Source: Xiphias gladius (Eukaryota > Chordata > Actinopteri > Istiophoriformes > Xiphiidae). Taken from it: a stretch of DNA of 64,000 nt. The position numbers and the translations under genes were made by a program. How positions within the stretch are numbered: the stretch's first letter is position 1; each line of letters begins with the position of its first letter. Below the pieces are notes generated by a model. That model ran no database searches. It saw only the letters and a program-made list of their open reading frames with translations, and was not told where the DNA came from. Where the stretch lies: contig NC_053422.1 in NCBI RefSeq assembly GCF_016859285.1, forward strand, positions 12,757,501-12,821,500. Reading direction: 5' to 3'. Shown piece by piece: positions 10,735-62,754 of the stretch.

Positions 10735-11490
10735 GTAGTTGTTTTGCATCTCATTTTGGTTGTTTTGTGTCTATTTTTAGTCATTTTGCATCTATTTTTA
10801 GTCATTTTGCATCTCTTTGTGGTCACTTTATGTCCCTTTGTAGTCATTTTATGTCTATTTTTAGTTGTTTTGTGTATTTTTTCGTCATTTTGCATCTATC
10901 TTGAGTCATTTTTCATCTCTTTTTGGTTATTTTACATCTCTTTGTGGTCGTTTTGTGTCTCTTTTTGGTCATTTTTATGTCTCTTTGTAGTCATTTTATG
11001 TCTATTTTTTTACTTGTTTTGCATTTATTTTAAGTCATTTTTCATCTCTCTGTTGTTGTCTCTTTGTGTTTGTTTTGTCTCTGTGGTCGTCGTGCATATT
11101 TTTTAGCTGATTTTTATCTCACCCTGGTTGTTTAGCATCTATTTTTAGTCATTTTGCATCTTTTTGTGATCTTTTTACATTTCCCTTTGCAGATGTTTTA
11201 CATTTATTTGTCATATTTTTTATGTGTATTTTTAGTTGTTGTGCGTCTCATTCTGGTGCTTCGGCATCAATTTCAGTAATTTTGCGTCTCTTTGTGGTCT
11301 TGTTCTTTTTTTTTTTTGTCTCATTTTGGTTGTTTTGCGTCTATTTTGAGTCAGTATCGCTTCTCATTGTGGTAATTTTTTTGTTTGTTTCAGTGACATT
11401 TCGCAGGTGAAGCCCAGGGGCCCCCTGACTGCTTGGGCCCCTGTGTCCAGTAGGCCAGTTCAGTAATCCATCGATGACAGTGTCATCCTG
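10735..11490 (+). repeat. Minisatellite-bearing dispersed element, copy 1
   Basis: Roughly twenty degenerate units of about 28-36 bases, of the form tttgcatctctttgtggtca, run from about 10,740 to 11,400. They are followed by a GC-rich tail cccaggggccccctgactgc and then cagtaatccatc. The same unit type and tail recur near 18,420-18,600 and, inverted, near 62,755-62,965. This indicates a dispersed family with an internal minisatellite, not a single local expansion. Long open frames over it are low-complexity artefacts. Confidence 0.75.
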
Positions 11491-20700: not shown

Positions 20701-22669
20701 CACTGGCAAGAGAAGGAACCGGGGACGTTGACACAACGATGTTGGCAGTATCTGTACCTGCACTCATCGATGTCTGAGAGAGAGAAATAAGAGTCAGAAG
20801 AGGTTATTAATCTCACCCCTGCCACTACAACTAACTTCACCACAGGCCATGTAGTAAAACCTTTTTTCTGAGTTGCCATATTCAAACCTACATAGCTACA
20901 CTAGTTAAAGGATAATTCAGATAATCTCACCGATACACTCTGTGCCAACCTTGCGGTAACCATCCGGACACTGGCAGGTGAAGGCACCCAGTGTGTTGAT
21001 ACACTGCTGGCTGGGCTGGCAGTCATGTTCGTCTCGCTCACACTCATCGACATCTGTGTTTGTGGGTGAAGTGAAACAGAGACACGAATGTCAAAAATGT
21101 GGTTGCTGTGAGCAAACGCAGCATCATTCAGCCTGACTGAGCGATACGCTTGTTAAGAGGGGAGACTGTGGCGATTCTGCTCCCCTCATTTACACCCAAC
21201 AGCTGATATTATCACATCATGTTGAATCATGTTTGCTGTCTCATGCAGACCAAGATGAACACCTCACTGTCCTCTGAGCGCAAGTAGGTTTCTCGGCCCT
21301 TAAAACACAGCAGCTGTCCTGGTGTGAAATCTTCCACATTCCTACACTGTCTGTCTGCCCCATGTGGACTCATACTCATTCACACCCACACAGATTGAGC
21401 CAACACGCTGCCTCCAGTCCCGACACCTGCTACGGCCACCTGTCCCTCACAATCTGTGGCCACTAACAATAAATTTACACAATCACACACACACACACAC
21501 AAAGGTGCTTTATAATCATTCATCCTGTTGCCACCTGTCCACCAGACACCCACCGACACAGCTCTCTCCCTGCGGCTCATAGCCCAGAGGGCAGGGGTTA
21601 AAGGGCTCGGTGGGCGTGATGGGAGGCTCCGGAGCTGGGATGACTGACGCAGAGCGAGGGAGGCACAGGTACCCTCCGTAGTGGTTGAAACACTTCATTT
21701 CCCCCTTGCAGGCATCTGGAATGGTCTCACACTCGTTTATATCTGACGGGAGATGCAGAGAGGGAATATTTAATTACTGAGCGTGAAGTACAGACAGTGG
21801 GCAGAGACAAATCAAGACAGGACAGGGCTTGGAGAGCAAGAGGACAATCAAAGCTGTTACTGTACATGAGAACTTGGCGTTGAGGGGGAATAACTATAGG
21901 TGAAAGAGAGCTTTACCTTTACAGTGCTCAGTCTGAGGGTCCCAGTGATACCCATCTGTGCATTCCTAAAAGCAGCAGAGAGAAAAAGAGAGTGTGAGAA
22001 AACGATGGAAAGAAAGATGTGAACAGTACCTCTGAGCCATAAAGTTGCATAATAAATTCATAATACATAATAAATTCCCCAGTAGTGGGACATAAAAAAA
22101 GAAGCAGCGATAGAAAAACTTGTTTCCATGTAGGAGTGCTGGGCCAAAAAGACAAGAAGTCTGCTGCTGTTAAAGGAAGTATGACAGTTTAAACTGCTTT
22201 CCTTAAGCCAAATGTCATTTCAAAAACAAAGAGTGTAAGATCAGTGTTTGGAAAAAGGGTGAATATCATTCTGGGAGAAAATATATTGATGTGAGCTGCA
22301 TGGAAAGAAAAAGTGAGGTCTAAAGAAACATGGAATTAAAACTAAAATTACCCCCAGCTAGGATTACTATAAAATGTTGGACGTGGAAAACTGCTGTGGA
22401 CTATTAAAGCAGAAGAAGAAGAGCTAGTAAAAAAGGAGAGCTAAGAGAGGGGAATTGAGGCCAACATTTCAACACAAAAATATCAACCGACAGTTGTAAT
22501 ATACAGAAAAAGAAAGGAATAAGAGAGAAGAGAAGAGAAGGAGGGAGAGAGATTCATCCATCCTTACCGTGTAGGTGTCACTTTCTGTAGGTGGCTGTGA
22601 AATAGCAGTGCGGAGGAGCACTGACACACATATGCACACGCACAGGTTTGACACACAAGCACCCTGCAT
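14745..22669 (-). CDS. efemp2: EGF-containing fibulin-like extracellular matrix protein 2 (fibulin-4)
   Basis: Secreted matrix glycoprotein; family members bind lysyl oxidase and tropoelastin and are needed for elastic-fibre assembly. Coding exons (minus order): 22669-22568, 21965-21917, 21742-21554, 21053-20931, 20773-20657, 19665-19546, 19466-19347, 19171-19045, 18380-18185, 14906-14745. They join in frame to 434 residues (human about 443). Residues 1-34 hold a signal peptide (hydrophobic core VCICVSVLL). An atypical calcium-binding EGF module with a Pro-rich linker spans 51-113. Five further modules begin DVDEC, DIDEC, DVNEC, DIDEC and DINEC at 114, 155, 194, 234 and 274, each essentially one exon. 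The fibulin C-terminal domain spans about 319-434 ([20 protein letters not shown]; ends YVGPYTF). [16 protein letters not shown] and [16 protein letters not shown] match EFEMP2 rather than EFEMP1. A probable non-coding first exon lies near 26.8-27.0 kb. Fish can keep two copies; which one this is cannot be told here. Confidence 0.95.
14907..18184. other. Large last intron of efemp2
   Basis: A 3.3-kb intron before the final exon. It includes a short copy of the gtctaatgcaacac repeat family at about 15,160-15,245. Otherwise it is AT-rich with no supported nested gene. Confidence 0.6.
18420..18602 (+). repeat. Minisatellite-bearing dispersed element, copy 2
   Basis: Inside an efemp2 intron. Three to four units like tgcatctctttgtagtcatt are followed by gggcccctgagccctttggg and cagtaatccattc. 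It has the same architecture as copy 1 at 10.7-11.5 kb but is much shorter. Confidence 0.7.
20285..20640 (+). repeat. MITE-like dispersed element fragment in efemp2 intron
   Basis: acaagtacttttacttttga, aggacttttacttgtgtgga and aatacttcttccattacc follow the order of the CAGTGGTGGAA-ended family. The left end is indistinct. Confidence 0.45.
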
Positions 22670-28757: not shown

Positions 28758-31700
28758 TCAGTCATGATACATTTTGAAGATACAGCTTTTGATGACGCCC
28801 ATGTATCTGTCCCACACACCCTGGTGTCTGAGGGGCAGAAAACAGAGACAGAAAGAGAGTAAACTGTAAGTAAATGGAGCAAAGAGGTACTGTAAGTCTC
28901 ATGACAAACTGTAATTGTGAAATCTGGGTGAAGAAAGTAAATGAGGCAATCTTTGTCCACTCTGTGTAATGGGGGGGGGTTACATTTCTTTTTATGAATA
29001 TCTCTTTGTTAAGCATGTCGTGGTGCAGGGCTGTGTAAACCCTTAACTACATTCCTCAGTGTTTGCATGAGAAACAAGGTAACTACAGTTTAAGGAATCG
29101 GGGCGAGATAGGGTGACACCCACTGGTAGAACAGGGACGTCAATATTAGAGAGGATTTTAACATACCAACTTTATGCTTGAGCAGTATTAAATGACTGCC
29201 AAAGCTTACTGTATATCCTTATTTGGTTACTGGTTAGTTTTCCCAAAGCTCTCCACGAAATCATGACTGTATTTTTAGCTTTGGTCACCCGCTTGGGAAT
29301 TGATTACCCTGGCATGGTTGGTGCCATGCTCTGCCTGATAAGTTTTGCAGAATAAAAGCACATTAACTCACTTGAATGTGTCAAGTATGTGTGCAGAGTT
29401 GGTGTAGTGAGTGAGGTAGAGTCTCATGTCCGCAGCTGTCCATCGGTCTGAACGGCACGGCTCAATAAACTGGAGGAGGAAAGGAGGGGAGGAGACGTTA
29501 CATCACACCGTCTCAAAGGCAGACTTTGAAGTTGGCACAGGCCTCAGAAAATCTGGGCCGGAAGATCTGTCTTTGCTTACGTTTGAAAAAAGAAACCTTT
29601 TTAAAAAAGCACAAACCTTCTCCACAAGATCAATGAAGAAATCTCTGACATCTTTTGTGTGGGTTAACTTTGCGGCAATGTTGACAAGGCCCCTGGAAAG
29701 ATTCTACAAAAAGAATTACATTCAAAAAGTATTAGCTTGTTTGACCGTGGCAGGTCCTGACCGATTATATTTAGGCTATGACGGCGGTATAATGTTTCTA
29801 ACCTTGAAATTAGCCTCCATCTCATTAAAAGCTTTAGTCTTTCCTCTGAGAGCTGTACAGACCAGACTGGACCGAGCGGAGAGAACATAAACAGATGAAT
29901 TAGAGATAAAAGAGAATGTTTGGATAAAATTATGTTAGGAAACCAGTACATTTTTCGGTAATCAGCAAAAATGTGTAGATCTGTCTGTGTGTTCCTGTTA
30001 CCTTTTGTGTTGATCCAGCAGATCTTTGTCCGTTATTAAAATCTTCAGCTCCTTCAGCTCTTGTAAAAACTCTTTATCAAGATCGACGTCCATGTCTTCC
30101 ACCATGTTATCTGCAAAGAATATTCAAGTCAGCCACTGTCAAATCAGCTTAAAGGATGATTTTTCTTGATACTATTATCACTACTTAGTCTTTTTTCTTA
30201 AAATTATTCAATTATTATGCCATTACTCAGATTCTGCCTAATCCGGTTAACCTTTTCACCTTCTTATTCGGTAACTTAAAAATTTAAAATTCACCCCTAT
30301 TCTAAAGAGGACCAGGAAAACCTCTTCCTTATTCATAAAACATAACCAACATCAGCGTACATTTTGTTCTCAAGTGAGCCATTTATTTTTACTATTTTCG
30401 CATAGTTTCAAATGTTTCTTTTTTACATTTTGTTGTTTTTGGATTTACCATTAATGTTTTATCGCTCTGCAACCATCAAACTAAGACAAATTAAGTTCAA
30501 TTTGATTAGCGGGTTATATAACTGTTAAAAAATGGTATACGTGCCCCTCACATCGTCTGTCAGCAAAATGGCCAAAGGAAACAACAGAAATCGCTCACCA
30601 ACGGCCCCAACGGTCCAGTTGTTGATAAGCTGCCCAGCACAGAAAGCAAAGTCCTGGAAAGTGAGATATTGTAGCTTTCTTTTCCCTGTCTCAAAGCGAT
30701 TGTTGGCAAAGAAAACAATGGCGGCATAATCCCTGAAACAAGCAGAGGAAGAATTATAGGAGATAACAAAATAGAACAAGACAATCAGGTTGAACTTTGT
30801 TGTTTTCCTTGGTTTGGATATCCTGAACACCTGCCTTTCATGCGGTATTTTAACAGAATTAGTAAACACTAGAAAAACCATGTAGTAATTCAGGATAAAA
30901 ACTACAACAAAACACGACTGAAGCAATACCAGTTTTTGAGGAATAAGCCCGAGGAAGGACAGCTTGTACTCTTTTCTTCTCACTGATTACCTTGCAAGCT
31001 TGTCAGAGAGAAGAAAATGCTGACGTATGTTCTCCACCAGGGGTCCCTTCAGCTCTTCCACAACTTTGAAAACACGTTTGAAGTTGTCAAACTGAAATTA
31101 AACACACGAAGCAAGAGATTTACTGACAAAACGTGACTTTTGTAAAACCTGTACGAATATTTATTCTGCAGGCATTCAGCTGCCCCTTTGTAACTGATAT
31201 ACCGTACACAGCGCTAGAAAAATTTTAGAAAAATTTTAGAAAATAAGCTTGTTGAAATGTTGAAACTTGCTATTCACAGATAACAAATATAGAGCAATGC
31301 ATGAGGTAACAACAAAAAAATGACAGTTCCAGAACTGCTATGTATCAAAACTGCTGCAGACTTCTCTGGTAAAAAATGTGCACTTCCAATTTTAAAACTG
31401 ATAATGCAGATGAACAGTCATTGTGGAGCTCAGAATGTATTTACCTGCCGTCTGCAGCTTTTCAGTGTGACACCTGTCTTGGCACTGATATCGTCTAAGT
31501 CTTTCTTGGTTCCTTTAGACAGTTTCTTTCCCAGGACCTCACGAACAAATGCATCATCAAAAGCATAGTATCTAAACAAAGAAACACACGTAACACGTTT
31601 AAGAATATATTCTCATCTACAATGTCAGGAAACAAGAATAAAGTACTGGGTTTAATAACAAATACATGTCATGGTAGCATCTGCCTTGAGAGGAGGATAA

Positions 31701-32673
31701 CCTAGTTCAAGGAAGATGCATATCCCAGAGATGGAAAAGAGAAAAAAACACAAATCCTTTTGTTTAAATGATGACAGCCAGATACTAGAAACACATCAAA
31801 TAATTTGATGCACATACATGAGAGCATCATTACTGTACCTGTCTATGAGGATGGCTTGTCGATGAGGTGGAATCTGGAACAGGAGCTGGTTGGCTAGTTT
31901 GGCTGGACTGTACAGCAGACGCTCACACATCTGGAAAGTCCTGTACTGGTCCATGGTGTCGCTCAGTAGGACATCTGCGCTCGCCTCACACTCCTCCAGC
32001 ACCCCTCCCTCCATTCGTGCCTTCACCGCATCATTCACTATTGGACAAGCATAGTTCAAAGGTTATATGTAATAACCTGAACTAACATAGCTACTGGTGT
32101 GCGGTGAACAAAGAGCAGGACTAAACCTACTACTGCTACTTCACAATTCACATTGGTTGCTACTGGTGTGCAGGATGTGGAGGCATATGCTGTAGTATTT
32201 GTGCAGGTAATTATAGGTTTCATTATGTGTTTACCAATTTGTTTCCCACATTTGATCACTGGTTACCTAACTTTTTTGATACCTATATTTTAATTCACAA
32301 ATTCATATGTTGCCACCCGTTCAACCAATGAGGAGTGTTTCATTTTAACCGTTTTTAGACGCCCAAAGAGGTGAAACTACAAACTATTTCACAATAGGCC
32401 CCTAAGATTTACCATGCAACCACTTGGGATTGTAAAACCCAGATAGTTCTCAACTTTGTAAAAAAAAAAAAAATACCTTGAATACATCCTGACTCTGTAG
32501 AAGTACCTGCATATTCATCATTATGTCCACAGTCACCTGGAGCACACTGTGACCAAGAGACCCCTTAAATCTATGGTGTGCCCCATACCTGTGTATCCAT
32601 CCAACCAGAGCCGATAAACCTTCTCGTCCATGATGGTGGTGTTACCCACGAACACATCCAGCTCCACTGCCAT
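28758..32673 (-). CDS. fibp: FGF1 intracellular-binding protein (FIBP)
   Basis: Family members bind internalised acidic FGF and act in its mitogenic signalling; human loss causes overgrowth. Coding exons (minus order): 32673-32589, 32037-31839, 31571-31445, 31091-30991, 30732-30599, 30110-30002, 29866-29803, 29703-29617, 29469-29372, 28827-28758. They give 357 residues, equal to the shorter human isoform. Diagnostic blocks: [20 protein letters not shown] near the N-terminus; [17 protein letters not shown] at 172-188; [17 protein letters not shown] near 222-238; C-terminus [18 protein letters not shown]. No signal peptide, membrane segment or catalytic motif is evident. The start ATG sits right after a pyrimidine tract and cag, so a non-coding first exon is likely; a fitting donor is at 32,792/32,791. 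Length and every splice phase agree, so the assignment is secure. Confidence 0.96.
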
Positions 32674-32791
32674 CTGCGTGCAGACAAAGGAGCAAAAGCA
32701 AGGGGGTCAGAAGGTGAATAACAACTAAGTGTTTAGCTTAAGTAACCATCAACAATCACCTGCCAAACACAGACGCCAGGGTGACATTTAC

Positions 32792-37439: not shown

Positions 37440-38042
37440 ATGGGCAGCGAGGGGGAGATAATAAATAGAGAACTGTCAAAGATGTCTGACGAGGATCTGC
37501 TGGCGTGCTCCAAAGAGGAGCTGGTGAGCCGGCTGCGTAAAGAGGAGTCCGAGAAAATAGCAGCGCTCATCCAGCGAGGACGTCTGATCAAGGAGGTAAA
37601 TAAACAGCTGCAGGGACACCTCCTCGAAATCAGGGAACTGAAAGTCATCAATCAGCGCCTGCAGGAGGAAAACGTGGAGCTGCGGGACCTTTGCTGCTTC
37701 CTGGACGACGACCGGCTCAAAGTGAAGAAGCTGGCCAGGGAATGGCAGCTGTTCGGGCACCACGCAGCCAAAGTGATGCGGGAGGACCTGGGCGGGTACT
37801 TGAAAAAGCTCGCCGACCTGGAGCGCATGCAGGACGGGCTGGTGAAGGAGAATTTGGACCTGAAGGAGCTCTGCCTGGTCCTGGAGGAGGAGTGCGTCAG
37901 CAGGAGTGACTCCAGCCCCGGCGGGTCCACCGAGCTCAACCTGCCCTGCATGGTGGCCCGGGACCTCGGGGACGGAAGCTCAAGCACAGGCAGCGTGGGA
38001 AGTCCAGACCAGCTTCACCTGGTGTGCTCACCTGATGACTGA
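37440..38042 (+). CDS. ccdc85b: Coiled-coil domain-containing protein 85B (delta-interacting protein A)
   Basis: Single-exon gene of 200 residues (human 202). Family members are adaptor-like coiled-coil proteins reported to bind transcription factors and catenins. The N-terminal third is acidic-basic helical (DEDLLACSKEELVSRLRKEE). Conserved cores are LIQRGRLIKEVNKQLQGHL, ELRDLCCFLDDDR and EWQLFGHHAAKVMREDLGGY, then NLDLKELCLVLEEEC. The two coiled-coil segments span roughly 25-90 and 115-150. The C-terminal motif DLGDGSSSTGSVGSPDQL and the ending CSPDD are the hallmark of the family and nearly identical to human. The start follows aaa before ATGG, a good initiation context, and no upstream in-frame start extends it. 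Human CCDC85B is likewise intronless and lies between FIBP and FOSL1. Confidence 0.97.
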   Translation: MGSEGEIINRELSKMSDEDLLACSKEELVSRLRKEESEKIAALIQRGRLIKEVNKQLQGHLLEIRELKVINQRLQEENVELRDLCCFLDDDRLKVKKLAREWQLFGHHAAKVMREDLGGYLKKLADLERMQDGLVKENLDLKELCLVLEEECVSRSDSSPGGSTELNLPCMVARDLGDGSSSTGSVGSPDQLHLVCSPDD

Positions 38043-41235: not shown

Positions 41236-43937
41236 TCACAGTGTGAGGATGGTCGGGGAGTGCAGGGAGTGATCCGATTGGTCACCACTGCTGCTGCTGC
41301 GGCGGTAAGCTATGCCACAGGGCTGTGGGGCTTGAGACTGTTGGACATTTCCCTGATGTGATGTAGTATGGGGCATGGTGGAGGCGCTGGTGTCTGAAGA
41401 GGCAGAGGGATAGGTGAAAACCATACCGGCTGCGAATGGCATTAGCGAGGGGGTAGATGTGAGAACCGGGGTGTGGAGCGACTCTGATTCAATGGCAACA
41501 GCAGAGGCAGACGATGTCACAGGCTTGGTGGGGATAGTTATCTTTGGCTTGGCTTTCTCAATCTTTGTTGGGAGTTTGGTTGAAGGTCCAGGTCTGCTGG
41601 AGTCCTCTGGCTCTTTTTTGATGCCTCCGAAAGAGGAAATTGAAGGATTTGGGTCAGAATCCGAATCGGAGTCGTCTATTTTACAGATGGGACGGTGAGC
41701 TTCCAGGACCAGCTCAAGCTTTTCTTTCTCCTTTTGTAATTCAGCTATTTCCTTCTGTAAGCGGGACTTTTCATCCTCCAGCTGGTCGGTCTCCTACAAC
41801 AGAGGAAAGCAGAGAGAGACAGACACAGACGTTAATTCTCTCATGCCTGACTGAGATCAATACACTGCCTTTCTAGTACTAATGTTATGACATTTTGTAC
41901 AATGTTCACTCACATTTTGCAGTGAGTCAGTGAGCTCCCGTCGGCGATTGCGACATTTTGCTGCTGCCAATTTGTTCCGCTCCCTTCTTATTCTGCGTCT
42001 TTCCAACTCTTCCTGGGATAACTTTGATGAGAAAGAGAAGAAAAAAAAAAAATTAAAATACATAAAACAGGTTGACCCGATGGAATGAATCGTGTAGCCT
42101 TCTTGCTTTGGGCAGACAAGTAATTTCAAAATATCAGACATACAGGGAGACATGTTGAGAGTCCACCTTAGGCAGCACGACACAGGAGAAATACTACCAC
42201 CATGTGTGTGCTCTGAGTCATCACAGTCAGGGCGGTTGAAAGATTTTGAAATATCTGAGCTTTTGTGCCTTTGTAACACCCTAACTCTGACTTCACCCGG
42301 GGCCTTAATGAACAATTACTGTTTCATCCCATATTTCCCGCTCTTTCGAGATGATGAGTCACACTCAGACCCCAACGGTGACTCGGGTGTGAGTCACAGA
42401 AAATGACTTGCCCCTGTGAGTCACATGACAGTCCACTTCCTGTACCATGAAATTTTCTCCCACAACCAAAACTGTCACAGGGATTTGTGCCAATGTGTGC
42501 CTGATAAACCCAAAAAACGATTTACGGAGGTGACAAAAATGATGACGGTTCCTGAGGTTAAAGCTGTGCTGAACTGGGTCATTTTAACGTCTGTGCTATC
42601 TTGTTTTGACACGTAATATTGCTCTGCTAACAAAAACCAGATAATTGCAAACACTGTGTCCCAAGTGATAATTTTACTGAGTCAACATTGACTCAAAGTA
42701 AACACAGAAAAAGAACACAAATACTGTGCATTTGCCTCCAGAGATCCATATATTCAATGAGCCTTCTTTAAATGATCTGCCAAGAATAATTTAAATAACA
42801 TCTATATTAAATAACATTTCAAAATAATCTTCCTATCCCTAAATGGGTTCATCTGATGTGCAAGTCTAAAGGAAATGAAACAGTTGTCCCACAGAGTATA
42901 ACAGGATATTACACACCATTTACGCAGAAATGACTGAGCCACTCTCCACACCTCAGTATCTGCATCTCCTCTGGGGAAAATATGAATCCCAAGAGGGCTC
43001 CTTTCATTTTCTCTCATCGACAACTCTCATTTTTCAAACAATAGAAAGGCAACACATCCACAATCACCGGTTTCTCTTCAAAAGATGTTTTTTGGCACTA
43101 CATATCTCAGTACTATTTTCTTACAAGTTCATCATTCCTGCGTCTTGGCGAAGCAGTAGTGTTTGTGGCGGCTCTTATTACCCCCGGTCTGAGAAGATGG
43201 GACTGGGAAGGAGGTGGACCCAGCGGCCGTGCCCCTGAGAAGGTTGCGTAAGGAGGTACCGGTGACCTTGAAGGGCCCGGTGGATGCATGAGGGAGGGTT
43301 GTACCAGCCACTGGAGGTCCTGGCTGGTCGTGATGGCATTGAGGCTCGGTACGAACTGACTGGTGCCTGCCATGGCATATTTCTATAAAAACAGATTAAA
43401 AAAAAAAAAAAAAAAAAAATTAGGGATAAAGTTAGTGGACAAGATAAAAGTATTGAAACAGAAGGCCTAAATTCAACATGTAACCAATACTAAAACACAT
43501 TGTGTCTGAGGTATAAATCAAAAGTTATTACAGTAAACGATGACTGATGATGAAGATTATCATTATTATGTTCATAAACAACGAGTTTAACGTTTTATTA
43601 CATACACAAACAGTATAATAACATGCATAACTACACTAAAATACATATAAGTGAACAGTGTTAACAGCATTACAGGTTTTCTACAATATTATAACTTGAA
43701 ATTCACTTTTTAAAACAGAAAAAAAGTTTTACAGTTTAATTCTTATTCTATCGTACTGATTTTACTCCCAGCTGTCAGGGGTAACCTGTAGCCTGGTCTA
43801 ACGAAAGGGACACCTACCTGCTCCTGTTGTGTCGCTCCAGAGGTGCTAGTGCTCCCCAGGGATCCAGTGTTGGACCCAGAGACGCTGCCTGTGTACGCCG
43901 GGCTGCCTCGTCCTTGACTCCCAAAGTTTCGATACAT
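41236..43937 (-). CDS. fosl1: Fos-like antigen 1 (Fra-1), bZIP AP-1 subunit
   Basis: Nuclear Fos-family factor that pairs with Jun proteins on TGAGTCA sites; an immediate-early gene in the family. Coding exons (minus order): 43937-43818, 43382-43125, 42021-41914, 41793-41236. They give 347 residues, longer than human FOSL1 (271), mainly through the last exon. The N-terminus MYRNFG fits the family's M-[FY]-R-[DN]-F start, so an upstream in-frame ATG at 43,991 was not chosen. Residues 53-74 include [15 protein letters not shown]. The basic region [19 protein letters not shown] is encoded by exon 3, and the leucine zipper has heptad leucines at 160, 167, 174, 181 and 188. The tail ends [10 protein letters not shown], the Fos-family C-terminal motif. 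Exon 3 starts exactly where Fos genes split, before LSxEE. Fosl2 is less likely given position beside ccdc85b. Confidence 0.95.
42214..42695. promoter_or_regulatory. fosl1: Cluster of six AP-1 (TRE) sites in fosl1 intron 2
   Basis: Exact TGAGTCA/TGACTCA heptamers occur at 42,214-42,220, 42,355-42,361, 42,390-42,396, 42,417-42,423, 42,678-42,684 and 42,689-42,695. Six perfect sites in under 0.5 kb is far above chance. Mammalian FOSL1 is known to be autoregulated through intronic AP-1 elements, so an intronic autoregulatory enhancer is the natural reading. Confidence 0.65.
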
Positions 43938-47224: not shown

Positions 47225-47765
47225 TCTGTCAGTGTAGCACATATTTACTCACGTAATGCCCTGAAGTACAATTTTGAGGTACTTGTGCTTTACTCATTTT
47301 CTGCTACTTTGTGATGCTACTTCTCTGAGTACTTCTTCCACCACTGGTAAGGAGTGTCATAAAAAATGTAGTATCACAAGTTGTCATTAGGCAGCATAAT
47401 GATCCATGTCATTGTTATATATTACACAACTGTAGTGTCATTAATGCTGCACAGGAATCTATGCAGCATTTTCATTTTATAACAGGCTGAGGTGAGGCCA
47501 GTTCTAACTTTTTGTGTACTTTCAAACGAGCTATTCCTTACAGGCTAATCCTTTGTGTGTAAAATCTGAATCTGAAAAGTAACAAGTGACTGTAATGTTT
47601 AAACAAAAGAAGTGAATTAAGTAACTTAAAATAATGGAAAGTAAAGTAATTGAGTTAGTATACTATAGGTAAATTTCACCACAGCAAATAGCCTACTGAG
47701 GACTAATTTCAGTTCTAGCAATGCATCATGTTTTATGAGCCTACTATAACGTGTTGCCTGTAACG
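47225..47765. repeat. Repeat block, left arm of an inverted pair flanking yif1a
   Basis: A MITE end (gagtacttcttccaccactg, to 47,346) is followed by about 400 bases that reappear in reverse complement at 55,658-56,133. Shared landmarks include tcacaagttgtcattaggca, gcataatgatccatgtcatt, ttaatgctgcacaggaatct and gcatcatgttttatgagcct. Confidence 0.7.
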
Positions 47766-47799
47766 CCGTCTACTGCATCCATATACTGCAATGACTTGT

Positions 47800-48528: not shown

Positions 48529-51500
48529 ATGGACTTGCCACAACATGGGTACCGAGCAAGTAAGTGTTAAGATGAATCACCTTGTTACCAACATTCATCG
48601 TTTTGGGGGAAAAATTTGCGTAATATCTACCAAGAGTAGCTACTTCCCATTTTTTACTAAAACATACGCACGCAGCTCAACTAATTCAACTCGTGCTGTA
48701 ACCCGGCTGGTGATGCGCACTAAAAGATGCCAGTTTATTAGGTACAGCTAACCAGAACCGGTGCAGTCTAATATACCAGTTTTTCAATAGATCCTACCTT
48801 CATGAGGGTGAATGTTTGCCCCCCCTCGCCCCCCACCAGTGATATACAGTACTGTGCAAAAGGTTGAGGCACTAAAAGTAAAGTGAGGAGGCTTTTTCGA
48901 AAATAATGCAGTAAAGTAAAGCTAAAGTAAAGAGCAGTTAACGGAATAAAAACTAATTAAAATCTGTGTTTGGTGTGATCACACTTTGCCTTTAAAACAG
49001 CACAACTTCTCCTCTTGAACACAGTTTTTCAATGTACTTGGCAGGTAGGTTGTTCCATGCATCTTGGATGCAATAAGCAAGCAAGCAAGCAAGCTCTTCT
49101 GTCAGAGTGTCTTCTGTCTCTTCCTGTAATCCCAGACTGACTCCATGATGTTGAGATCAGGGCTCTGTGGGGGCCAGACCATCTGTTGCAGGCATCCTTG
49201 TTTTTGCACCGAAGACAGTTCTTTATGAATCTGGGTTTATGTTTTGGGTCGTTGTCATACTGCAGAATGAATCTAGGACCAGTCAGACGCCTCCTTGATG
49301 GTATTATTTGATGGATAGGAATCTAAACATCTGGAGTGCCTAAAACTTTTGCACAGCACTTGACGTGGGACAACAGCAGCAAAAAACTGAATCTTCCAAA
49401 ATGTCTGTGAACACCTCCTCTATAAAATTTTGACCAAAAACTGAAAATTGTAATTTTTGTGAAGGCAGAGCGGCATTATTTCTTTTTTTTAAACTACATT
49501 AGTCTTAGCTAAAGGTACCTATCAAACTGGCAACTGAGTGTAAGCCTTGGATGACTTTAAGTGAAACATTCAATATGTTTGGAATATCTAAAATGATGGG
49601 ATTAACATATTAGCCAATTAGGGTGGGTTTCAGTAAATGTGTGTATTTGATCATGGGGATAATAAGTTAGCAACTCCATAAAATATCATCCTGCATATTC
49701 TCTGTTGTGTCCATCTTTTCCACAGCTAAGCCAAGAGCACGCGCAGCTCCCCCCACAGCAGATTCTGTCCTGTTTGAAGACACCAGCTCTGCAGCACCGG
49801 CAGTGAACAGTCAGGGATACTACACCCCTGGGTACAATATGGGAGGACCCTCAAATGACATGCAAGGAGGTGCTGGTGTGAATAACATGTTTACTGACCC
49901 AATGGCCAATGCTGCAATGATGTATGGCTCCTCCTTAGCCAACCAAGGAAAGGATATGGTAAACAAAGAGGTGAGGAAAAGCTGGATATTCATAGGATTC
50001 CTTCAAATATGTTATACAGTGCTTAATGTATTTGGATGGAGGATAGGGCTGCTAACCCATAAATCTATAAATAAGGTCAAGGCCTGGATTGGGTTAATTG
50101 GCACCACTTTACACTGAATGTGCCTTGGGCGATTCAAATCACAAGTTAACAGTACAAAATACAGGTTTAAATGTACCCAAAACACTTTTCTCTGTTTTCA
50201 AAAGGTTTTGAAGTTTCTCTGTAGTATGACCAAGAGTAGAGATCTAGACCCGGCCTGATTCTTAAAACTGTTATATGTCATAAGATATTAGGACTAAACA
50301 GGAGTTTAGAGTCATCTGGAATGCAGCTGTGAAAAAAAACGTTTTCTTCAATGCAGGTGGTTATTTTTGTGCCATTTTATTTAATTTTTGTCCGATAAAC
50401 TGACTCTTGCTTTCACAAGTTGAGTTTTTTCAGCATAAAGAACCACGCAGATGTGTTCTTCCACTGACATAGTCTCTCTCCAGGAGCGGCCTGATACTTT
50501 CTGCTGTTCAGCTTCTCTCTAATGATCCATTGCTTGATCTTAGTCACATCTACAGCCTTTTCACAGTTGAAACTTCAATGCCAAGGGATGTCATTTTTTA
50601 GTGGACAGGTTTTCAATCAAGCAGACCCTCTTCTGATCTGCTGTCTAATGTAAAATAAACACACTTTCCTCACCCTGGATTAAGGAAGAACCATTTAAGT
50701 AAATGCATTTCCCGTGGATGGCAGCCAAATAATACTGATGTTTTTCTACTGGTTTGGCAGCTTTGATATGCAGGTGGTTCAGAATACATAGACTTGGTGT
50801 CAGGCCAAAGTGATGTACAATCTTCAGGGCAGGCACAGCCTTCTTTAAAAGTGACAGACTCAACAGTATTTATTAACTTTGGCAGACTGCTGCACCTCAT
50901 TTGTTAACTTAATGTTTGCACTTCCTCTGCATTTCAGATCAGCAGATTCATGTCTGTGAACAAGCTGAAATACTTCTTTGCCGTCGATACCAGATATGTA
51001 CTGAAGAAACTTATGATCCTCATGTTCCCTTATACACATCAGGTAATCAAAACCTTTTCGTCCTGTCAGACTTCGTCCCACATCAATGTACGTTATGACA
51101 CAAAACATTTAATAGTTGAGGACTGGGTGATAATGTTCTCTCATACCATATTTTTAATCACTCATCACTTTTAAACCACACAAACAAGATAATCAGCCAC
51201 TATTCCAGCTTTATTTATAAACAACACAATGCTGTGATTGCCTGTAAGGATATAAAAGCATACTGAGCTCCCACAAATTCCCACAAACTTTAACTTATGC
51301 AGATTGTAAATTAAATCACCACTCCAGACATTCTGTGCCCTGATAATGTACAATTACACAGAGTTCAAACTCTCCTTACAAGAACAGGGTCACATAGATT
51401 TTACAGATTAACCCTAAAAACTATTTACTACTACATAGTATTTACAATTATTAAAGTTTGGTTGTAATGTTTGTTAGTTCTGTCTGCATAGAGTACCTCA

Positions 51501-54500
51501 TAGCTGGGGTTTACTTAAAAGAGTAAGTCTGGTGATATTCTGTATTTTTCTTGTTGTCAACAAATCTTATGAAACGACCAAATCCGACAATGAGTTGATC
51601 TTAATAACAAGTATCATCCGTGAAGCCAAAGGCTGATATATCTTATTCCTTTCTGCCATAGAGGTCTTCTGTTCTAATAAAGCTATTGAAAGCACATCAT
51701 TGAGCCACCCCCTTGCAGCAGGTGGCATGTTCCTTCAAAACCATGAACATGGACATTTTAGTTACTTTGATTCAATCCCACATACACATGCCTGCTGCTG
51801 TAAATACCCAGTAGTGCACCAAGCTCCTCAGCTAACCTTCTTATAAACTAATTTACCACAGACAGGGTCAGAAGGAGTATTAGTAGGAGAGTATTGAGAG
51901 TCAGACTAATACAATGTTGGTTTTGTCTTTTCATGGAATTTCATGATTGTAACAAAAATGATAGAATATTGCTAGGCTCATCCTTCAGTGAGGGCATTCT
52001 TCTAAACACAAGACACAAATTAATCCAGTTTAATATCTTATATCGTACTTATTATTCTCCTTTTGAATTACATCAACTCGAGCCATCCGTATCTTTTAAA
52101 TGTCCGAGATGCCAAAAAAATGGTGCAGATTTGTTTCATGTGCTATGGAACTGTGAGATATTGGAAAGCTAGTAAAAATCAATACATCAACAGTTCAGTA
52201 ACACACTACAGAGAGAAATTAAACTGGACTCAATTGTGGCTCTTTTTGGGGGATTTTGATATTGTTGTCCCACAGTGGTTTAGATCTGTTGCAGAGTAAA
52301 ATGTACTTACTTGTACAGCGTCAGGAAACTGTTAAAAAGTACTAAAGACTAAACACCTGTTTTGTTGTACTTGTTCACAACATGTTATTTTGCTGTTATG
52401 TAATATCTTATACTGTATTTACCCCATTCTTACTTTTGCAAGATTTGATCAGCTACCACTGTTGTTACCCCTAATTTATCATTGAGCTTTTGTTTTAATC
52501 AATTAATTCACATTTCTCACCAAGTGTAAGGTAACTTCCACATCGCGGGTGTCTAAACCATTTTATTGTTTGACGTAAGCTAAGTTTTTCCACCTAGTAG
52601 ACTCTTAAGCTGGGAAAAAAAGCACAGAGAATCATTTGTATGGAGCTCTGTTTGACTCTGCAGGGTGATTCATATTATATTTGTGTATTCTTGGTAGGAC
52701 TGGGAGGTTCGTTATCATCGGGACACTCCACTGACTCCAAGACAGGATGTGAACGCGCCTGATCTTTATATACCAAGTAAGTTTTCTATAAATACAAAAG
52801 TATTAATAGGGAGTATTTTGAGATGCTTGTATAATGTATGAACTGTCCTTTTTGTGTTTTAGCAATGGCTTTCATTACCTACATTTTACTTGCTGGAATG
52901 GCCCTCGGCATTCAGAAAAGGTGAGTAACTCCTCTTCATCAAATTTATTTTATGACTCACAATACATAGGCATGTATCAGATAAAGTTAAATAGAATTCT
53001 GCGTTGTCCTTGTGTGAAGGTTCAGTCCAGAGGTTCTTGGACTGTGTGCCAGCACTGCCCTGGTGTGGATCATCATCGAGGTATTGGTGATGCTGTTGAG
53101 TTTGTACCTGCTGACTGTACACAGCGACCTCTCAACCTTTGATCTCATCGCCTACAGTGGATACAAATATGTTGGGTAAATAGACCTTAGATGCAAATAT
53201 TTTAAAATTAATTAATGATTCATTATTGACAAAGCAAAAGAGTTTGATGATTAGTTTCAGGCCAAAGCTGCTCCTCATTTTTGTAAGCGAACAAATCAAG
53301 TGCTAAATAAAAGATTTGACAACTTGATTATGATTTAACTCAGTGGTTGAAATGTAATTTTGTAAATAAGGAAATTTTGAAATGTACTTTGGTCCATGTG
53401 AATGGTGTTAATGTTTTTGTTTATTTCTTTCCTCCAGGATGATCTTCACAGTGTTGAGCGGCTTACTCTTTGGCAGTGACGGATATTTTGTGGCCCTTGC
53501 CTGGTCCTCTTGTGCCCTTATGTTCTTCATTGTAAGTTTTTTCAGTCTTTATTGACATCAACCACTACATTTATAAACTGAACTGAATAATAGAGGAAAT
53601 GTTTTCTTAAACACAAACCAAATCACTTCACTGACTAATTTCTGCTCAATCTGACTCAGAAAATGTGATTACACATGTGTATTACGCTACTACAAACTTA
53701 TTTAACTCCACACAAGCAAATTTCTAAGCTTAAAACTTTGTAATTCTCTCTCCAGTGCAGTATTATGTTTGTTTACTGTGGCATAATTTTAGTTTAGAAA
53801 AGGTGCTGATTGTCTCTGTAATAATAATTACTTATATTCCATAAGTAGGTCAGATATTTACATATTTAGATGCAGTTTTCCATTTCTATTGTTCTTTCCT
53901 GGGGTGTTTAAAAAGAGAATTCTAAAGAAGCAAACGTGCAGAACACAAACAAAAGAGGAAAGCTAATACAAACAAAACTTAAATCAATATCTGTATGTAA
54001 AATATAATGAGGTGTGTAAACCCTTATCAGGTTCAGGCTTTACGGCGCAGCCACCAAGTGTTATAAATACACTTTGTAATGTTTAGTGCAACATCAAAAT
54101 ATATCAGCCTTTAGCATTATTCAGTTTTGTAGGATGGTTAGCTTAGCTTAGCACTAAGACTTGGGGAAACGGCTAGTATGAAGTATTGATTTAAAGGTGA
54201 ATTTTCCAGGCGTCGAACGTAGACTCTAGGAAGTTACTGGGTGGTCAAGAAATAGCCCGCCACAAAAACCTCCATTAAACTGCAACATGTTGTTCTTCCT
54301 CTTTAGTTTTTGCGCAGATTAAATAGGAGATGTAACGTGAAAAAGTGAACTTTCGAGGTGGTGGCAGATAGATTTTGGTACTTTTAGGCAGAACCAGGCT
54401 ACCTTTTCCCTCCTGTTTTCAATCTTTATGCTAAACTAAGCTAACCAGCTGCTGGTTGTAGCTTCATATTTACTGCACAGACATGAGAGTTGTATGAGTC

Positions 54501-55366: not shown

Positions 55367-55657
55367 TTTATTGAGCCTTGTGTATTCAATTTTAATAGTT
55401 TCTGAGACTTTTTTTGTTCAATGCCAAAAAGCTACATACGTACGGAACAAATTCTTGTATTTGCTGTATCTGATTCATTTATTTCTGAAAAACATTGATT
55501 TATTTCAGTTACTAAGATTTAATTTGTAAAGACGGTGTCAGAATTGTGTAAAAATTTTACATTTCAGAGGCAATTTTTACTCTACTGTATTAAGAGCAAG
55601 TGCCATCTTTAGTTATATGTCAGTATAAAGTCATTATAGTATATAAGTGCAGTATAC

Positions 55658-56133
55658 AGTGTTTCATGCAACGCATTATAGTAAGCTCATAAAACATGAT
55701 GCATTACTACAGCTGAAATTAGTTTGCTGTGGTGAAATTTACTTAGCACATTACAAGTACATTAACTCAAGTACTTTACTTTGTATTGTTTTAAGTTAAT
55801 TGTACTTTTTCCTGACTATTTCCATTTTATGCTAATTTATACTTCTACTTCACTACCTTTCAGAGAAAAATATTCTTTTAAATTCATTTCATTTGTTTGA
55901 CAAAGTCACTAGTTACTTTGCAGATTCAGATTTTACACACAAATGATTAGCTTGTAAAATATATATTGATAAAACCACTTGAAAGTATACCTCAACCTGC
56001 TATTAAAATGCTGCATAGATTCCTGTGCAGCATTAATGAAACTACAGTTGTATAATGTATAACAATGACATGGATCATTATGCTGCATAATGACAACTTG
56101 TGATACTATATTTTTCTGACACTCCTTTCCAGT
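55658..56133. repeat. Repeat block, right arm of the inverted pair flanking yif1a
   Basis: Reverse complement of the block at 47,340-47,765, including the junction to the adjoining MITE end. The arms show the same succession of landmarks, with small indels and substitutions. Confidence 0.7.
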
Positions 56134-56739: not shown

Positions 56740-57010
56740 TGTCTTACGTTGAGCGCTGTTTCACCGCTGGTTGGTCGGGAGGCTGCGGACTTGGAGCGGG
56801 AGCGCGCACGGGAGCGCGGAACAGTGGAGAGCGTCGTTTTTGCGTTGCCACGGAAACCGCGGACGGCAGCGGAGCTCGGAGGGAGCGCGGTCTCCGACTC
56901 CGACTCTGGTTGTTTCCACCACCACGGTCTCACCTTTGACTTTTCAGCGACGGGTTCCGGACATTTAAGGGAGCTCCGGATTCGGCCGGAATTACCGTTT
57001 TGGTATTTTG
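56740..57010 (+). promoter_or_regulatory. Promoter and non-coding first exon of the FOXN2/3-like gene
   Basis: A strongly GC/CpG-rich segment ending in a clear donor, tattttg|gtgagt, at 57,010/57,011. An open frame runs through it, but joined to the next exon it would not enter the forkhead frame, and an in-frame stop precedes the chosen ATG. This exon is therefore best read as 5' UTR, as in FOXN2 and FOXN3. Confidence 0.55.
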
Positions 57011-57893
57011 GTGAGTAACTAGTCAATATTTTGAGGTGAAACACCAGCTAATATCACCGAGCGGGTTACCTGTGGAAGGGGGCGGCTTTCTTGACTAAAT
57101 GAAACTTTATATTGTTCCGCCATTTGCCTACTGAACTGCTCCGTAAAGCCATGTGGCATCGCATTGGCGTGATAAATTCAATTCCACGCGGAGGTCAGTC
57201 AGTTTAGTTTATTAAAAAGCATTTAATCGATGCCAGCGCACCTCCTGTACAGCTACGAGCGACAACACCTGGGCACGTTTTGCGTTTGATAAGACGGGAG
57301 GTGGTACTGTAAGGGTGTACACACAGTGGACTTTGAAAGTCTTGCGGATGCTCATCTGAGGGGAACGCATAGCTAACATTTAACTGAATCGAGCCGTTTA
57401 GCTTTTTGCTTTTTCTCAACCTCTTTTTTGGTCTAAAACTTTGGAGTTTCAACGAACCTGGATTGGTTTACCCCATGTGTTTGAATTGGTGTTTTTGTTT
57501 TGAAAGGTAGGCTACTTTTGAAAATTTGGTTTACCATTCCTTAAAAAAAATGTAACTGGAAAAAAAAACAATAAAAATTCAAGTTTAATTTCACTGTTTT
57601 TTGTTCCGTTTACTCTGCACAAAAGACGTGTTTTGAATGCATGGACGTGGGTTCTTTGGGGGTTTTTCCTTAGGTTGTTGTAGACTATATTTTTAAGCTC
57701 TTTGAGGCAAATTTATGATTTTAGGCTATCTAAATAAAATAATATTTGACTTCAGTTCATTGTGCAAAGTTGCTCACTTTTAATTCTGATTTACACGAAT
57801 CACTCCTTGCAGCAGTAACTTTGGTTAATTTCTGTCATATATTTCAGCAGTGGTACAGCTGAATGACCCTGGAAGTTTCCTCCTGGGAGAGAG

Positions 57894-60800
57894 ATGGAGA
57901 ATAGCTCTCAAACACTGCCACCCTCGTCCCCATGTCCCACCACTTTTGGAGGGTCCGTGCCTTTCTCCTCCTCACCACAGCGGACCTGCTCCAACGGCCA
58001 TGTTTCACTCCCACTTTCACCCATTTCATTCCCCCCGTCCCCTACCTCACTTTCTCCAGCAACAGCAGAGTCCATTCACTCTTCCTCCCCTCTTTCACAC
58101 TGCGCAGCATCTCAGTGCCTTGAAGGACAAAACATACAATGCCTCAGCCCGGCAAACATATCTGACCAGGACGACCTGACGTGCCTCAGCTGGCTGCATC
58201 AGAGAGGCGACCTGCTACCACTGCAGCCCCTTCCCAAAATGACACCACTGCCTCAGCTAGAGTCCTCCGCACCTACACGGCCTCTTCCTCCGGCCTTGTC
58301 CAAGCCGCCGTACTCCTTCAGTAGTCTGATTTTCATGGCAATAGAAGATTCACCAGACAAGAGGCTTCCAGTGAAGGACATCTACGAATGGATTGTGAAC
58401 AATTTCCCCTACTACAGGACAGCCTCTGCTGGCTGGAGGAACTCTGTTAGACACAACCTGTCCCTGAGCAAGAGCTTCTGTCGCATTCAGAGGGACAAGA
58501 GCCAGGTGGGGACATGGCTCCCAGTTTCCACATTAAGAGTAACAGGGTCATGTAGCAAGTAAAGCGACTGTGATTTAAATTATAGGGGAGAAGTGAGAGA
58601 AGTGAGAGAAATGTTCTCCAGCATCACACTGAATCCAGATGTGCTGCTCTGTAGTGAAGTCATTAATCAAACTGCCCTCCAGGGAAACTATTATAATCTC
58701 CTCCACACGTGTTCAGTTTGTAGTATGGTCTAATGTGTCACTGTTGCTTAAGACGAACATCTTTGCATGGGTTGTTGCTGTTTCAGTGTTCTAAGAAGTT
58801 TTGTGTTACTGTTTCAGTCAGTGGGGAAGGGATCCCTGTGGTGTGTTTGTCCAGAGTATCAGCCGGCGCTGCTCGAGGTGCTGAGGAAGACCCACAGTTA
58901 TCACAGCACCAACAGCAATCTGATAAACAAGCCTGCACTGTGAGTATAGTCACACAGTTTAAATATGTGCAACAGGGCTGCACGATTTTCATGATCAGTT
59001 TATCCTTTTTTGATTAATGTTCAACTCCATAAATTCAAAGTTAAAAAATGCTTATTATGCTTATGCTACATTTTTCTGTATTTATTTAATGACTAAAATA
59101 TGTGATTACTAAAGGTGGAGTAGATAAAATGTTCTGTTCATTGAATCCTTGTTAGATCATTGATTAGACGTCAATACTAAATGTTAGCGGTGATACAACA
59201 GTTTTGATAATCAGTTAATCAGACACAAACATTTCTTGGCCCCAGCTAAAACAATGTGAGAATTTGCTGCTTTTCATTGTTTTTTAATACATTTAAATTG
59301 AATATATTTGGATTTTGGGCCATTGATCACACCAAAGATGCAATTTGAATATTTTTCCTTGGGTTCTGGCAGATTGCAATGGGCATCTTTAAGAATTTTC
59401 TGGTTTTTATAGATAACTGATCTGATCTAACTGATAAGAAAGACAAATAATCATTAGTTGCATTCCAACAAAATGGTTGGTTTCTTTCTAAATTTGCTGC
59501 ATTTTTTTCTTGATAACATTCTAACCAGAGCAGTTGAATGTGATTTCCCTGTAGTGGGTGAGGTGTTTCTGCATAATTTTACATTTGAATGACACTGTTT
59601 CTGAGGGGTATTTCAAACACACAAACAAACAAACCGTATTTATTTAGTTGTCTAACCATCTTGCCATGTTGTATGCAGGTTGGAAGGAGCTGACTATGGG
59701 TCGCCTGCAGTGTGTGACTCTATGGAAATCTCAGGTTCGTGCTGAGGGGACTAACAGCAGGCTCATGTAACTTAATTAGCATAGGAACTTACATATTTGA
59801 CCCTTTATGAATATCTTTGAGTCTACAATATATTTCATCAGTGGAGTAACAGCTCTCTGTGACACTTTTATTACATGCAGCTTTTCTCCGTCTCTGCAGC
59901 TTTCGCAGCATGCAACATTGTTCCTGTGTTTGTGTTCAGTTGTCATGGCAACAACCTTCTATTACCGTGGCAACCCCGCAATAGTCTAGCTCGGTGTCCT
60001 TTATGTCCACTCGCCTTATTTCCGACCCTATGCACTATATTGGCCCACATGCTCACTGAAGAATCTGACAAGTGGTTGTTCAACCAGTTAATAATATTAA
60101 TGCCTTACCTTATGACTCATATTCTGCCTGTTTGTTTGTTTGTTATTTAGATCCCCATTAGTTATTGTATTGTAACAGTAGCTACTCTTCTTGGGGTCCA
60201 CATAAATGTATTTAAAAGACTTGAGCGGCAAAGAGTACACATAACATTTGACATCCATACTTACAGTGAGTCTCGACAATATATAAGACAAACACTAATA
60301 CAAAAACAACAAACAACAAGGCGACTCAAGGCTTTTTTATTACATAGATAGTTCGACATAATATTATCCCCTTAGGGAAATTAAAAAAATAATCAGTTAG
60401 CAACTTAAATCACTAAATCACAAGTGTGACAGATAATTAAAGAATAGTTAATTTTATTTAATTAAAGATAATTAAATAAAGAACAAAACAATCATATACC
60501 ATATTAAGCAACACAATTTCTTGTGTAAAAAGGTACAATCTTAACTTTTTGTTAAAACGTGTTGTGCTACTTTCTGACATCAAATAAAATAACTAGTAAT
60601 TAATTCCATGCCACTATTGCTCAATAACCGACTGTTCTCTGTATTAAACTGTCTGGAGGTAACAGAAAGTTACTCTCTGTAAAACAATGATTTCTGTCTG
60701 AGAAAAAAACCAAGAGGTTTGTATAAAGTCTTCCCGACGTTTAAGTTTATGATGATGTTTCCTCTAAAGCACGCTGAAGAGTAACGCGGGCTGTTTTTTA

Positions 60801-61434
60801 CACCAAGTAAAATGACCATTCATTGTGACTACGCATGGTCGATATGGGCAGTGAATTGTCATGCAGGCTGCTATGTTCTGTGCTACCTGTGATCTATTAT
60901 GATTACTTTTTGTTGTGTTGGACCAAATTACTGAGCAGTAGTCTAACTGTGACAATACTAATGCCATTACTCATCGTTTGGTTAAATAGCCAGGCATTAA
61001 TTTTCCACAGTGTTTTATGTTTTAACACTTTGACCTGTTATTTCTGTCTTCTTTGATTGTTTTTTTTTTTTTCTTCACATGCAGATCCTCTTTCTCAAAC
61101 CCTCCTCTCCATGCCCTCACCCCAAACCCTGACCATTGATAACCCAACTTTTGCTGAAAATCCACCGTACCTTTTGACCCCGGATCACGAGGAGCTTGTC
61201 ACAATGGAGTCGGTTGAATACCAGCAGGAGGAGGTCAGCGAGGAAATGGAAAAGGACCCCCTGTCAGACAGCGGGTACATCGAGTTACATTACTACCAGT
61301 CTCACCAGTACCAGTACCTGGTGCTGCCGGGTGACACCGAGGTGGATCTGGAGACTGTGGAGATTCTTCAGCTGGATGCTGAGGCCCAGGAGGCTGCTGG
61401 GTCGCTGCTGGACCTAGCAGGTGGTGGATATTAA
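57894..61434 (+). CDS. Forkhead transcription factor of the FOXN2/FOXN3 group
   Basis: Nuclear DNA-binding factor; FOXN3 relatives act as transcriptional repressors linked to checkpoint control. Coding exons: 57894-58505, 58818-58939, 59679-59734, 61085-61434, giving 379 residues (FOXN2 about 431, FOXN3 about 490). A Ser/Pro-rich N-terminus is followed by LTCLSWLHQRGDLL at about 95-108, resembling the LxxLxWLHE motif of the group. The forkhead domain spans about 136-230: SKPPYSFSSLIFMAIEDSPD, then DIYEWIVNNFPYY, WRNSVRHNLSLSKSF and SVGKGSLWCVCPEY. The tail has LSDSGYIELHYYQ and ends EAAGSLLDLAGGGY, matching the conserved SDSG and AAGSLLxLAG boxes of FOXN2/3. FOXN1/N4 and FOXR forkheads differ. 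It is equally distant by eye from FOXN2 and FOXN3, so it may be a third paralogue; no symbol is given. Confidence 0.9.
59939..59952 (+). promoter_or_regulatory. Canonical X-box (RFX site) in forkhead gene intron
   Basis: gttgtcatggcaac is a full RFX consensus palindrome. A second half-site, accgtggcaacc, lies about a dozen bases to its right. It sits in the intron before the last coding exon. Confidence 0.5.
60127..60967 (-). mobile_element. 5'-truncated LINE copy (3' part of reverse-transcriptase ORF plus tail)
   Basis: The minus strand reads ALVLSQLDYCSVIWSNTTK at its start, a block typical of fish Rex/L2-like LINE reverse transcriptases. Further on comes the LINE 3' end gaccccaagaagagtagct, then aatggggatctaaata and a short (AAAC)n-type tail at about 60,127-60,143. 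Only the C-terminal part remains and the frame is broken in places. It is inserted in the last intron of the forkhead gene, antisense to it. Confidence 0.7.
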
Positions 61435-62670
61435 TTTGATATCTCATTTAACAGTCACAGCCGATGCGATACTTCAGCAAATACTCAAATAGGGCGACAT
61501 AAATAGGATTTATGTTGGTTTGGATAGAGTGATGATGTTTCGTACATCGGCTGCTTCCTCCTGAGACGCTGACACTGCCCTAAGGCTTTTGTACTGTTGT
61601 GTAGTTAGATGACAATATAGATCAACTTTACTGATGGACTAACATGTATTCAGGCACTTTCAGTGCAGAAGCTGAATGTACCAGCATACCATGCCATACA
61701 ATAACAACCTGGACAAAGACTTGAGAGGGTAACATTGATCTTAGATATATAGAAAAGATTATACTCTGAGATTTTAAAACCGAGGAGAAAGTATTAATAG
61801 AGTATGGTCTTCAATACAATACGTTTTTAGGGTTTCCACTGTGATTTTTTTAACAGATTAAGTTCATTCTCAGGGAGGGAAGGAGTGCTTCCAACTCAAG
61901 CAGAAGTAGTGTTTCTTGACCAAAATATTTCCCAAATTAAAGTATGATTTATACAGGGTCGGAATTTGCACAAGAAAAGTACAAACGTAGCTCTTTTGAG
62001 GAATACACTGAGCAGCGCACTAACTCACATCCACACTGGTACTATTTCAATATGAGTATGTCTTACCAACCAGTTCTTCTCCCATTCTTCCAAATGGTAA
62101 CCGTCTTTTCTTTATAATAATGTTTTCATAGAGGTTACTTTATGTGGGGGAAAAAAACTCTCAAAATAACCTTAAGTTGAATATCTTGCCCCTTAACACT
62201 GTTACTGTAGCCTTTTCTGAAAATGCTGTTTTTCTAAAAGTAGTTAAACTTCATTAAAAAAACACTTTATTTATAATGTAATTACAATTGTAGATTGTAA
62301 AGTAGGAAAGCACTACTCAGTTATAATAATATATGTACTTCCAATTTCATTTGAAATGAATTTCTTTACACCCATTGTCACTCTTCAGATCATGTTCCCT
62401 ACAGTTGATTTTATGTTACTGAATCCCTAAATGTCTTTTAATTTTTTGTGAATTTGTAACCTTGGATATGATCTTGTAAAGCTAAGATAAGCTCTCTTCA
62501 ATCAGGAAAACAGTTTGATTGAAATGTTGAGTTAAAATGTAAGACGAACTCACTGCCATTTAAAAAAAACCTTACATTTAAGGATACACTGAATCTGTGT
62601 ATGTAAATTGTATGTATTTTCAAAAGCTCTAGATTTTATAATCTAACAAATAAAATCTGTCATGTGTTCT
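61435..62670 (+). other. 3' UTR of the FOXN2/3-like gene with poly(A) signal
   Basis: An AT-rich 1.2-kb stretch without further open frames, ending at AATAAA (62,649-62,654) and a GT-rich element shortly after. The length suits a regulatory transcription-factor 3' UTR. Confidence 0.55.
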
Positions 62671-62754
62671 TGGGAATTAAAATGGCTGGTTATTATGTTC
62701 AGACAACATATCAGTTCCATTTTAATAGCACTATAGTTTACTACAGTCCTAACA

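Follow-up and report, generated by a model that had tools for sequence, protein, structure and literature searches.

A FoxN2/3-class forkhead gene beside a fibulin, CCDC85 and FOS gene block in Xiphias gladius, and its likely origin as a third ohnologue of FOXN2 and FOXN3

FOXN3 (CHES1) is described, in passages of one paper, as a protein of 490 residues encoded at 14q31.3-q32.11 whose C-terminus is a repressor that binds SKIP, and which acts with SIN3A (PMC6555274). Sections of a second paper report that FOXN3 binds both forkhead (FKH) motifs and GACGC (FHL) motifs and that its LIQALK wing-2 stretch, which is apparently helical, matters for GACGC; in FOXN1, Asn317, Ser318, Arg320 and His321 contact the bases, and GACGC binding seems to depend on Gly314 (PMC7062188). 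A precedent of another kind is SSTR6, an ohnologue belonging to the chromosome 11 arm that, according to parts of a somatostatin-receptor study, lies on gar linkage group 28 (LG28), is present in teleosts, gar and coelacanth, was lost in tetrapods and was earlier misnamed SSTR1/SSTR4 (PMC3560075). Here we describe an intact forkhead gene of the FoxN2/3 class in a 64-kb window of Xiphias gladius DNA (the whole stretch that was analysed; all coordinates are positions within it), where it lies in line with fibulin, FIBP, CCDC85, FOS and YIF1 family genes, and we weigh its likely origin as a third ohnologue of FOXN2 and FOXN3.

The forkhead gene lies on the + strand, where a first-pass annotation of this DNA had placed it, and consists of four coding exons that encode 379 residues in a single frame ending with a TAA codon at 61434 (Table 1); all three of its introns start with GT and end with AG. 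The 56-nucleotide exon is needed, because a model that skips it breaks the frame and yields a protein truncated to 262 residues and lacking the C-terminal box. Taken by itself, coding exon 1 matches Pfam Forkhead (PF00250) with an E-value of 5.8e-28 and 97.3 bits, against a cut-off of 27, over profile positions 1-68 of 88. When the forkhead domain was compared with the PDB by phmmer, the best match was FOXN3 (148 bits, E 1.3e-42), followed by ILF/FOXK2 and FOXG1 at about 91-92 bits and FOXN1 at 86 bits; the matches included no FOXN2, FOXN4 or FOXR1, so that the comparison of scores covers families other than these three. The domain is 67% identical to that of FOXN3 over 97 columns and shares with it the recognition helix GWxNSVRHNLSL and a proline-free wing-2 helix stretch.

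Further comparisons used provisional sequences of FOXN2 in full and of FOXN3 outside its forkhead domain, and we refer to these sequences as provisional. A DDLT-L-WLH N-terminal box and a DSGY...EAAGSLLDLAG C-terminal box are common to the X. gladius gene and to provisional FOXN2 and FOXN3, with EAAGSLLxLAG as the form common to the gene and FOXN3, and two-sequence blastp comparisons of its C-terminus with the provisional C-termini of FOXN2 and FOXN3 gave E-values of 9e-7 and 2e-6, respectively. Provisional FOXN2 (HTLF, on human 2p) has all three boxes found in the gene, but differs in forkhead changes of its own, among them YMAIEH and KCLPVKE, that the X. gladius gene lacks. Membership of the FoxN2/3 class is therefore well supported, and the FOXN2/3 hallmarks named by the first-pass annotation are borne out both in the domain and in the boxes outside it. 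The encoded protein is shorter than FOXN3 (379 against 490 residues), has no counterpart of the middle region and ends directly after the C-terminal box. A middle AMMLLN motif (perhaps not class-defining) and a basic C-terminal tail are both absent from the 379-residue model, and no MMLLN codon pattern occurs on the + strand at 56-62 kb.

The neighbourhood of the gene bears on where it came from. From left to right the window contains a fibulin gene (-), FIBP (-), a CCDC85 gene (+), a FOS-type gene (-), a YIF1 gene (+) and the forkhead gene (+), all linked within 64 kb in a set that we assign to human 11q13; the order at human 11q13.1 is EFEMP2, FIBP, CCDC85B, FOSL1, with YIF1A nearby. The first-pass annotation had named efemp2, ccdc85b and fosl1 as neighbours. 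Pfam and PDB matches establish the fibulin, CCDC85 and FOS families, whereas the paralogue labels (EFEMP2 and not EFEMP1, FOSL1 and not FOS, and likewise YIF1A and not YIF1B) are assumed from context, not from a tree. FIBP and YIF1, which both fit the 11q13 set, add to that list of neighbours and strengthen it. FOXN2, EFEMP1, CCDC85A and FOSL2 lie on human 2p and, following the first-pass annotation, FBLN5, CCDC85C, FOS and FOXN3 on 14q; no FOXN gene is known on human 11q13, nor is a mammalian copy of the X. gladius gene known.

We consider it likely that this gene is a third ohnologue of FOXN2 (2p) and FOXN3 (14q), a product of the two rounds of genome doubling early in vertebrate history (2R), descended from the copy on the 11q13-type arm. 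Whereas its family, its intact frame and its neighbourhood are direct observations, its 2R origin, its loss in mammals, the DNA sites it would bind and any repression are what we infer. In the relevant sections of one study, 15 families around CHRM1/3/5, including LTBP, SPTB and EHD, define four related regions produced by the two doublings; the first of these is human 11/gar LG28 and the fourth human 19, and the same paralogon had been studied earlier around the somatostatin receptors (PMC6298421). For an overlapping set of families, that earlier study names human chromosomes 14 and 20 in the part relevant here and, with less clarity, chromosomes 11 and 19 (PMC3560075). The third-ohnologue proposal, which the first-pass annotation had already made, is supported by the FOXN2/3 family, the conserved neighbourhood, the 11/LG28 paralogon and the SSTR6 precedent, and loses its argument from an intermediate sequence: over 93 forkhead positions the gene is identical to FOXN3 at 62 and to provisional FOXN2 at 58, while FOXN3 and provisional FOXN2 are identical to each other at 71, so that it is further from both than they are from one another. 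SSTR6 is a precedent only, in that it encodes an unrelated protein; its origin has been shown by trees and synteny.

Several points weigh against a third ohnologue. Neither 2p nor any FOXN gene is named in the paralogon passages of the two studies (PMC6298421, PMC3560075); the words foxn3, efemp2 and fosl1 are absent from the former (PMC6298421), and in the latter a search of the main text shows FOXA as the only Fox genes, and the chromosome 14 block chosen is 23-53 Mb (PMC3560075). Passages of the same study also describe, for this very paralogon, the exchange of duplicates between ohnologous chromosomes in teleosts after 3R, with FOXA, JAG, PYG and PAX as the zebrafish examples (PMC3560075). 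Among 92 forkhead sites compared between the X. gladius gene, FOXN3 and FOXN1 (the latter two checked against the PDB), 11 changes are special to the gene and 2 to FOXN3 (Tajima test with FOXN1 as the third sequence, chi-square 6.2 and p 0.013; p 0.022 by an exact binomial test). The forkhead domain of the gene is evolving faster than that of FOXN3; because the rates are unequal, divergence says little about the age of the gene, and dating it in this way was rejected. With provisional FOXN2 added as a fourth sequence, two informative sites group the gene with FOXN3, none with FOXN2 and one outside both, a split that neither supports nor refutes a separate clade; a closer relationship to FOXN2 or to FOXN3 is not well supported either way. 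On its far side the forkhead gene has no neighbour that open reading frames, or the six frames of 63.3-64 kb, allowed us to name, so that it forms the edge of the proven block. Finally, the membership of 2p in the quartet, the identity of its partners and the lack of a mammalian copy are assumptions, and the 23-53 Mb block of chromosome 14 would stop short of FOXN3.

The post-3R exchanges would favour a different history, in which foxn2 or foxn3 was duplicated within teleosts (at 3R or later) and the copy was transferred to the ohnologous region, where it diverged. The fast evolution of the gene could hide such a recent origin, and its identity to FOXN3 is slightly higher than to provisional FOXN2 (62 against 58 of the 93 positions). 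That likeness may, however, consist of shared ancestral states, FOXN3 being the slower gene, and a moved duplicate must have landed by chance in a compact conserved block: if placement is random, the probability that a FOXN2/3 copy falls within 45 kb of a given block is below 0.001, assuming a genome size of 400-1000 Mb and a family of 4-8 copies. Because the linkage to the conserved block is so tight, this history is disfavoured and we regard it as unlikely, though deserving of some weight. The sequence comparison also bears on whether the gene descends from a pre-2R or small-scale FOXN2/3 duplication and lies in this region by coincidence. Eight sites common to FOXN3 and provisional FOXN2 differ in the X. 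gladius gene and in FOXN1 each, and eight further sites differ in the X. gladius gene alone, so that it could branch outside FOXN2 and FOXN3 together. Against this, a pre-2R duplicate needs an extra event that a position in the quartet does not, and the pertinent passages of a hemichordate survey (PMC4077281) and an arthropod survey (PMC8918179) name one FoxN2/3 class and no second, the arthropod survey giving at least one ancestral FoxN2/3 member (PMC8918179). We judge such a coincidence quite improbable.

It is highly improbable that the gene is a decaying or silent copy and not a working gene. Its faster change, its short C-terminus and the middle region missing relative to provisional FOXN2 and FOXN3 point that way, but they stand against a frame of 379 codons that stays open across four exons with canonical splice borders, the retention of the residues that contact the bases and a CpG-rich, promoter-like stretch. 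Another FOXN or FOXR identity is barely credible; foxr1 (formerly foxn5), foxn1 and foxn4 represent the nearest other classes, and foxr1 has in its favour a location on human chromosome 11, which we take to be 11q23. FOXN1 was rejected on its 86 bits in the PDB against 148 for FOXN3, and foxr1 and foxn4 were rejected less firmly, on the N-terminal and C-terminal boxes typical of FOXN2/3, which were judged from provisional sequences and not from a direct score. In parts of a study of foxr1, its neighbours shared by gar and mammals include upk2, ccdc84, rps25, trappc4, slc37a4 and ccdc153. None of the six was recognised in the window, parts of which are unassigned; this argument is weak because, according to the same study, teleosts have retained few of these neighbours (PMC6109588).

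As a third ohnologue of FOXN2 and FOXN3, the gene would be a working transcription factor of their family, most likely acting like FOXN3. It has AGWRNSVRHNLSL at the recognition helix and LLEVLR at the wing-2 stretch, and the counterparts of FOXN1 Gly314, Asn317, Ser318, Arg320 and His321 are all kept. Because the contact residues and the wing-2 stretch both have counterparts, dual FKH/FHL binding is predicted, with the recognition helix binding FKH sites and probably also GACGC sites; a glycine at the FOXN1-314 position seems to be needed for this bispecificity, and is perhaps insufficient for it. The C-terminal part, judged by its sequence, would recruit a repressor complex. Repression is plausible because the C-terminal box has been kept, but it may be weaker or different because the middle region and the tail are missing.

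A fuller scenario is more tentative, and we think it somewhat doubtful as a whole: a third FOXN2/3 gene of jawed vertebrates, present in the bony-vertebrate ancestor, would have been lost towards mammals, while the fish copy shed its middle region and basic tail, retained the residues that read DNA and changed quickly, with the result that it may now compete with or fine-tune FOXN2 and FOXN3 at FKH and GACGC sites, perhaps filed as foxn2-like or foxn3-like. Fish databases may well already carry the gene under one of those names. If a tree bears out the third ohnologue, the ancestral jawed vertebrate had three and not two FOXN2/3 regulators, studies of fish foxn2 or foxn3 would have an extra gene to reckon with, the paralogon arm of SSTR6 would gain a second gene that fish have kept and tetrapods have lost, and gene names in fish databases could be corrected. 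Among the papers listed by searches of open-licence PubMed Central, with subscription papers and gene databases outside the search, none deals with a third FOXN2/3 gene in its title or the start of its abstract. In genome-contig and viral-contig collections, a pattern made from 68 residues of the forkhead exon gave 95 and 15 matches, none confirmed as vertebrate DNA, and a pattern made from a two-sequence alignment gave 114 and 33, again with none confirmed.

Table 1. Features of the forkhead gene and of its neighbours, in positions of the 64-kb window.
Feature	Position	Strand	Basis or content
Probable non-coding first exon with promoter/CpG island (putative transcription start)	56740..57010	+	Sequence features
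Coding exon 1	57894..58505	+	Start codon, DDLT-x-L-x-WLH-type N-terminal box and first three quarters of forkhead domain; frame and splice sites
Coding exon 2	58818..58939	+	Remainder of forkhead domain (SVGKGSLWCVCPEY...)
Coding exon 3, 56 nt	59679..59734	+	Frame and splice sites
Last coding exon	61085..61434	+	C-terminal box DSGY...EAAGSLLDLAG, stop codon
AATAAA/ATTAAA motifs (62649, 62676), candidate poly-A signals	62649..62681	+	Motif alone
Presumed efemp2 (fibulin gene), outer exons unmapped	14751..21764	-	Fibulin_C and EGF_CA
fibp gene, absent from first-pass annotation	28761..32706	-	Pfam FIBP in 3 of 3 open reading frames (E 1.6e-22, 1.8e-19, 2.5e-9); further exons by eye
ccdc85b, single-exon CCDC85 gene	37440..38039	+	Pfam CCDC85, E 6.9e-81
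FOS-family gene with two coding exons, presumed fosl1	41239..42315	-	Joined bZIP
yif1 gene, taken as yif1a, absent from first-pass annotation	49671..53552	+	Pfam YIF1

Upstream of the coding exons, the interval 56751-57000 has a G+C content of 0.63 and a CpG observed/expected ratio of 1.28; a donor-like TTTTG|GTGAGT follows position 57010, and an acceptor-like TTTCAG precedes the coding exon. The CpG-rich interval fits a probable promoter and 5′ untranslated exon starting at about 56740. On the other side of the gene, further candidate poly-A motifs occur at 61936 and 62253, in addition to those in Table 1.

Among the neighbours, the fibulin gene has Fibulin_C in both of the open reading frames submitted for it (14751-14888 and 18137-18472) and EGF_CA in all four that were tried. 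The two exons of the FOS-type gene fall below Pfam cut-offs when given separately; once joined, their bZIP matches Pfam bZIP_1 (E 3.3e-9), passing three bZIP cut-offs, and finds c-Fos (E 3.5e-26) and FosB (E 2.8e-25) as its best PDB matches. The choice of fosl1 over other FOS genes is our assumption, made on its LEAHRPICK stretch. In the yif1 gene, Pfam YIF1 matches 53018-53176 (E 9.6e-18) and, below the cut-off, 49671-50114 (E 0.0011), while the open reading frame at 53412-53552 has no Pfam match.

Elsewhere in the window, two stretches, 24545-24868 (+) and 43200-43376 (-), have coding-like scores in several frames and no Pfam match. Positions 10711-11218 hold a minisatellite whose repeat unit is about 21 nucleotides long. 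At 49120-49221 (-) lies a remnant of a transposase C-terminus, Tc1-like by eye, which matches Pfam DDE_3 below the cut-off (E 1.4e-4). Two pairs of inverted arms (114 nucleotides at 95% and 96 nucleotides at 83%) at 47362-47797 and 55628-56115 flank yif1 and probably represent a single mobile element present twice, in opposite orientations.

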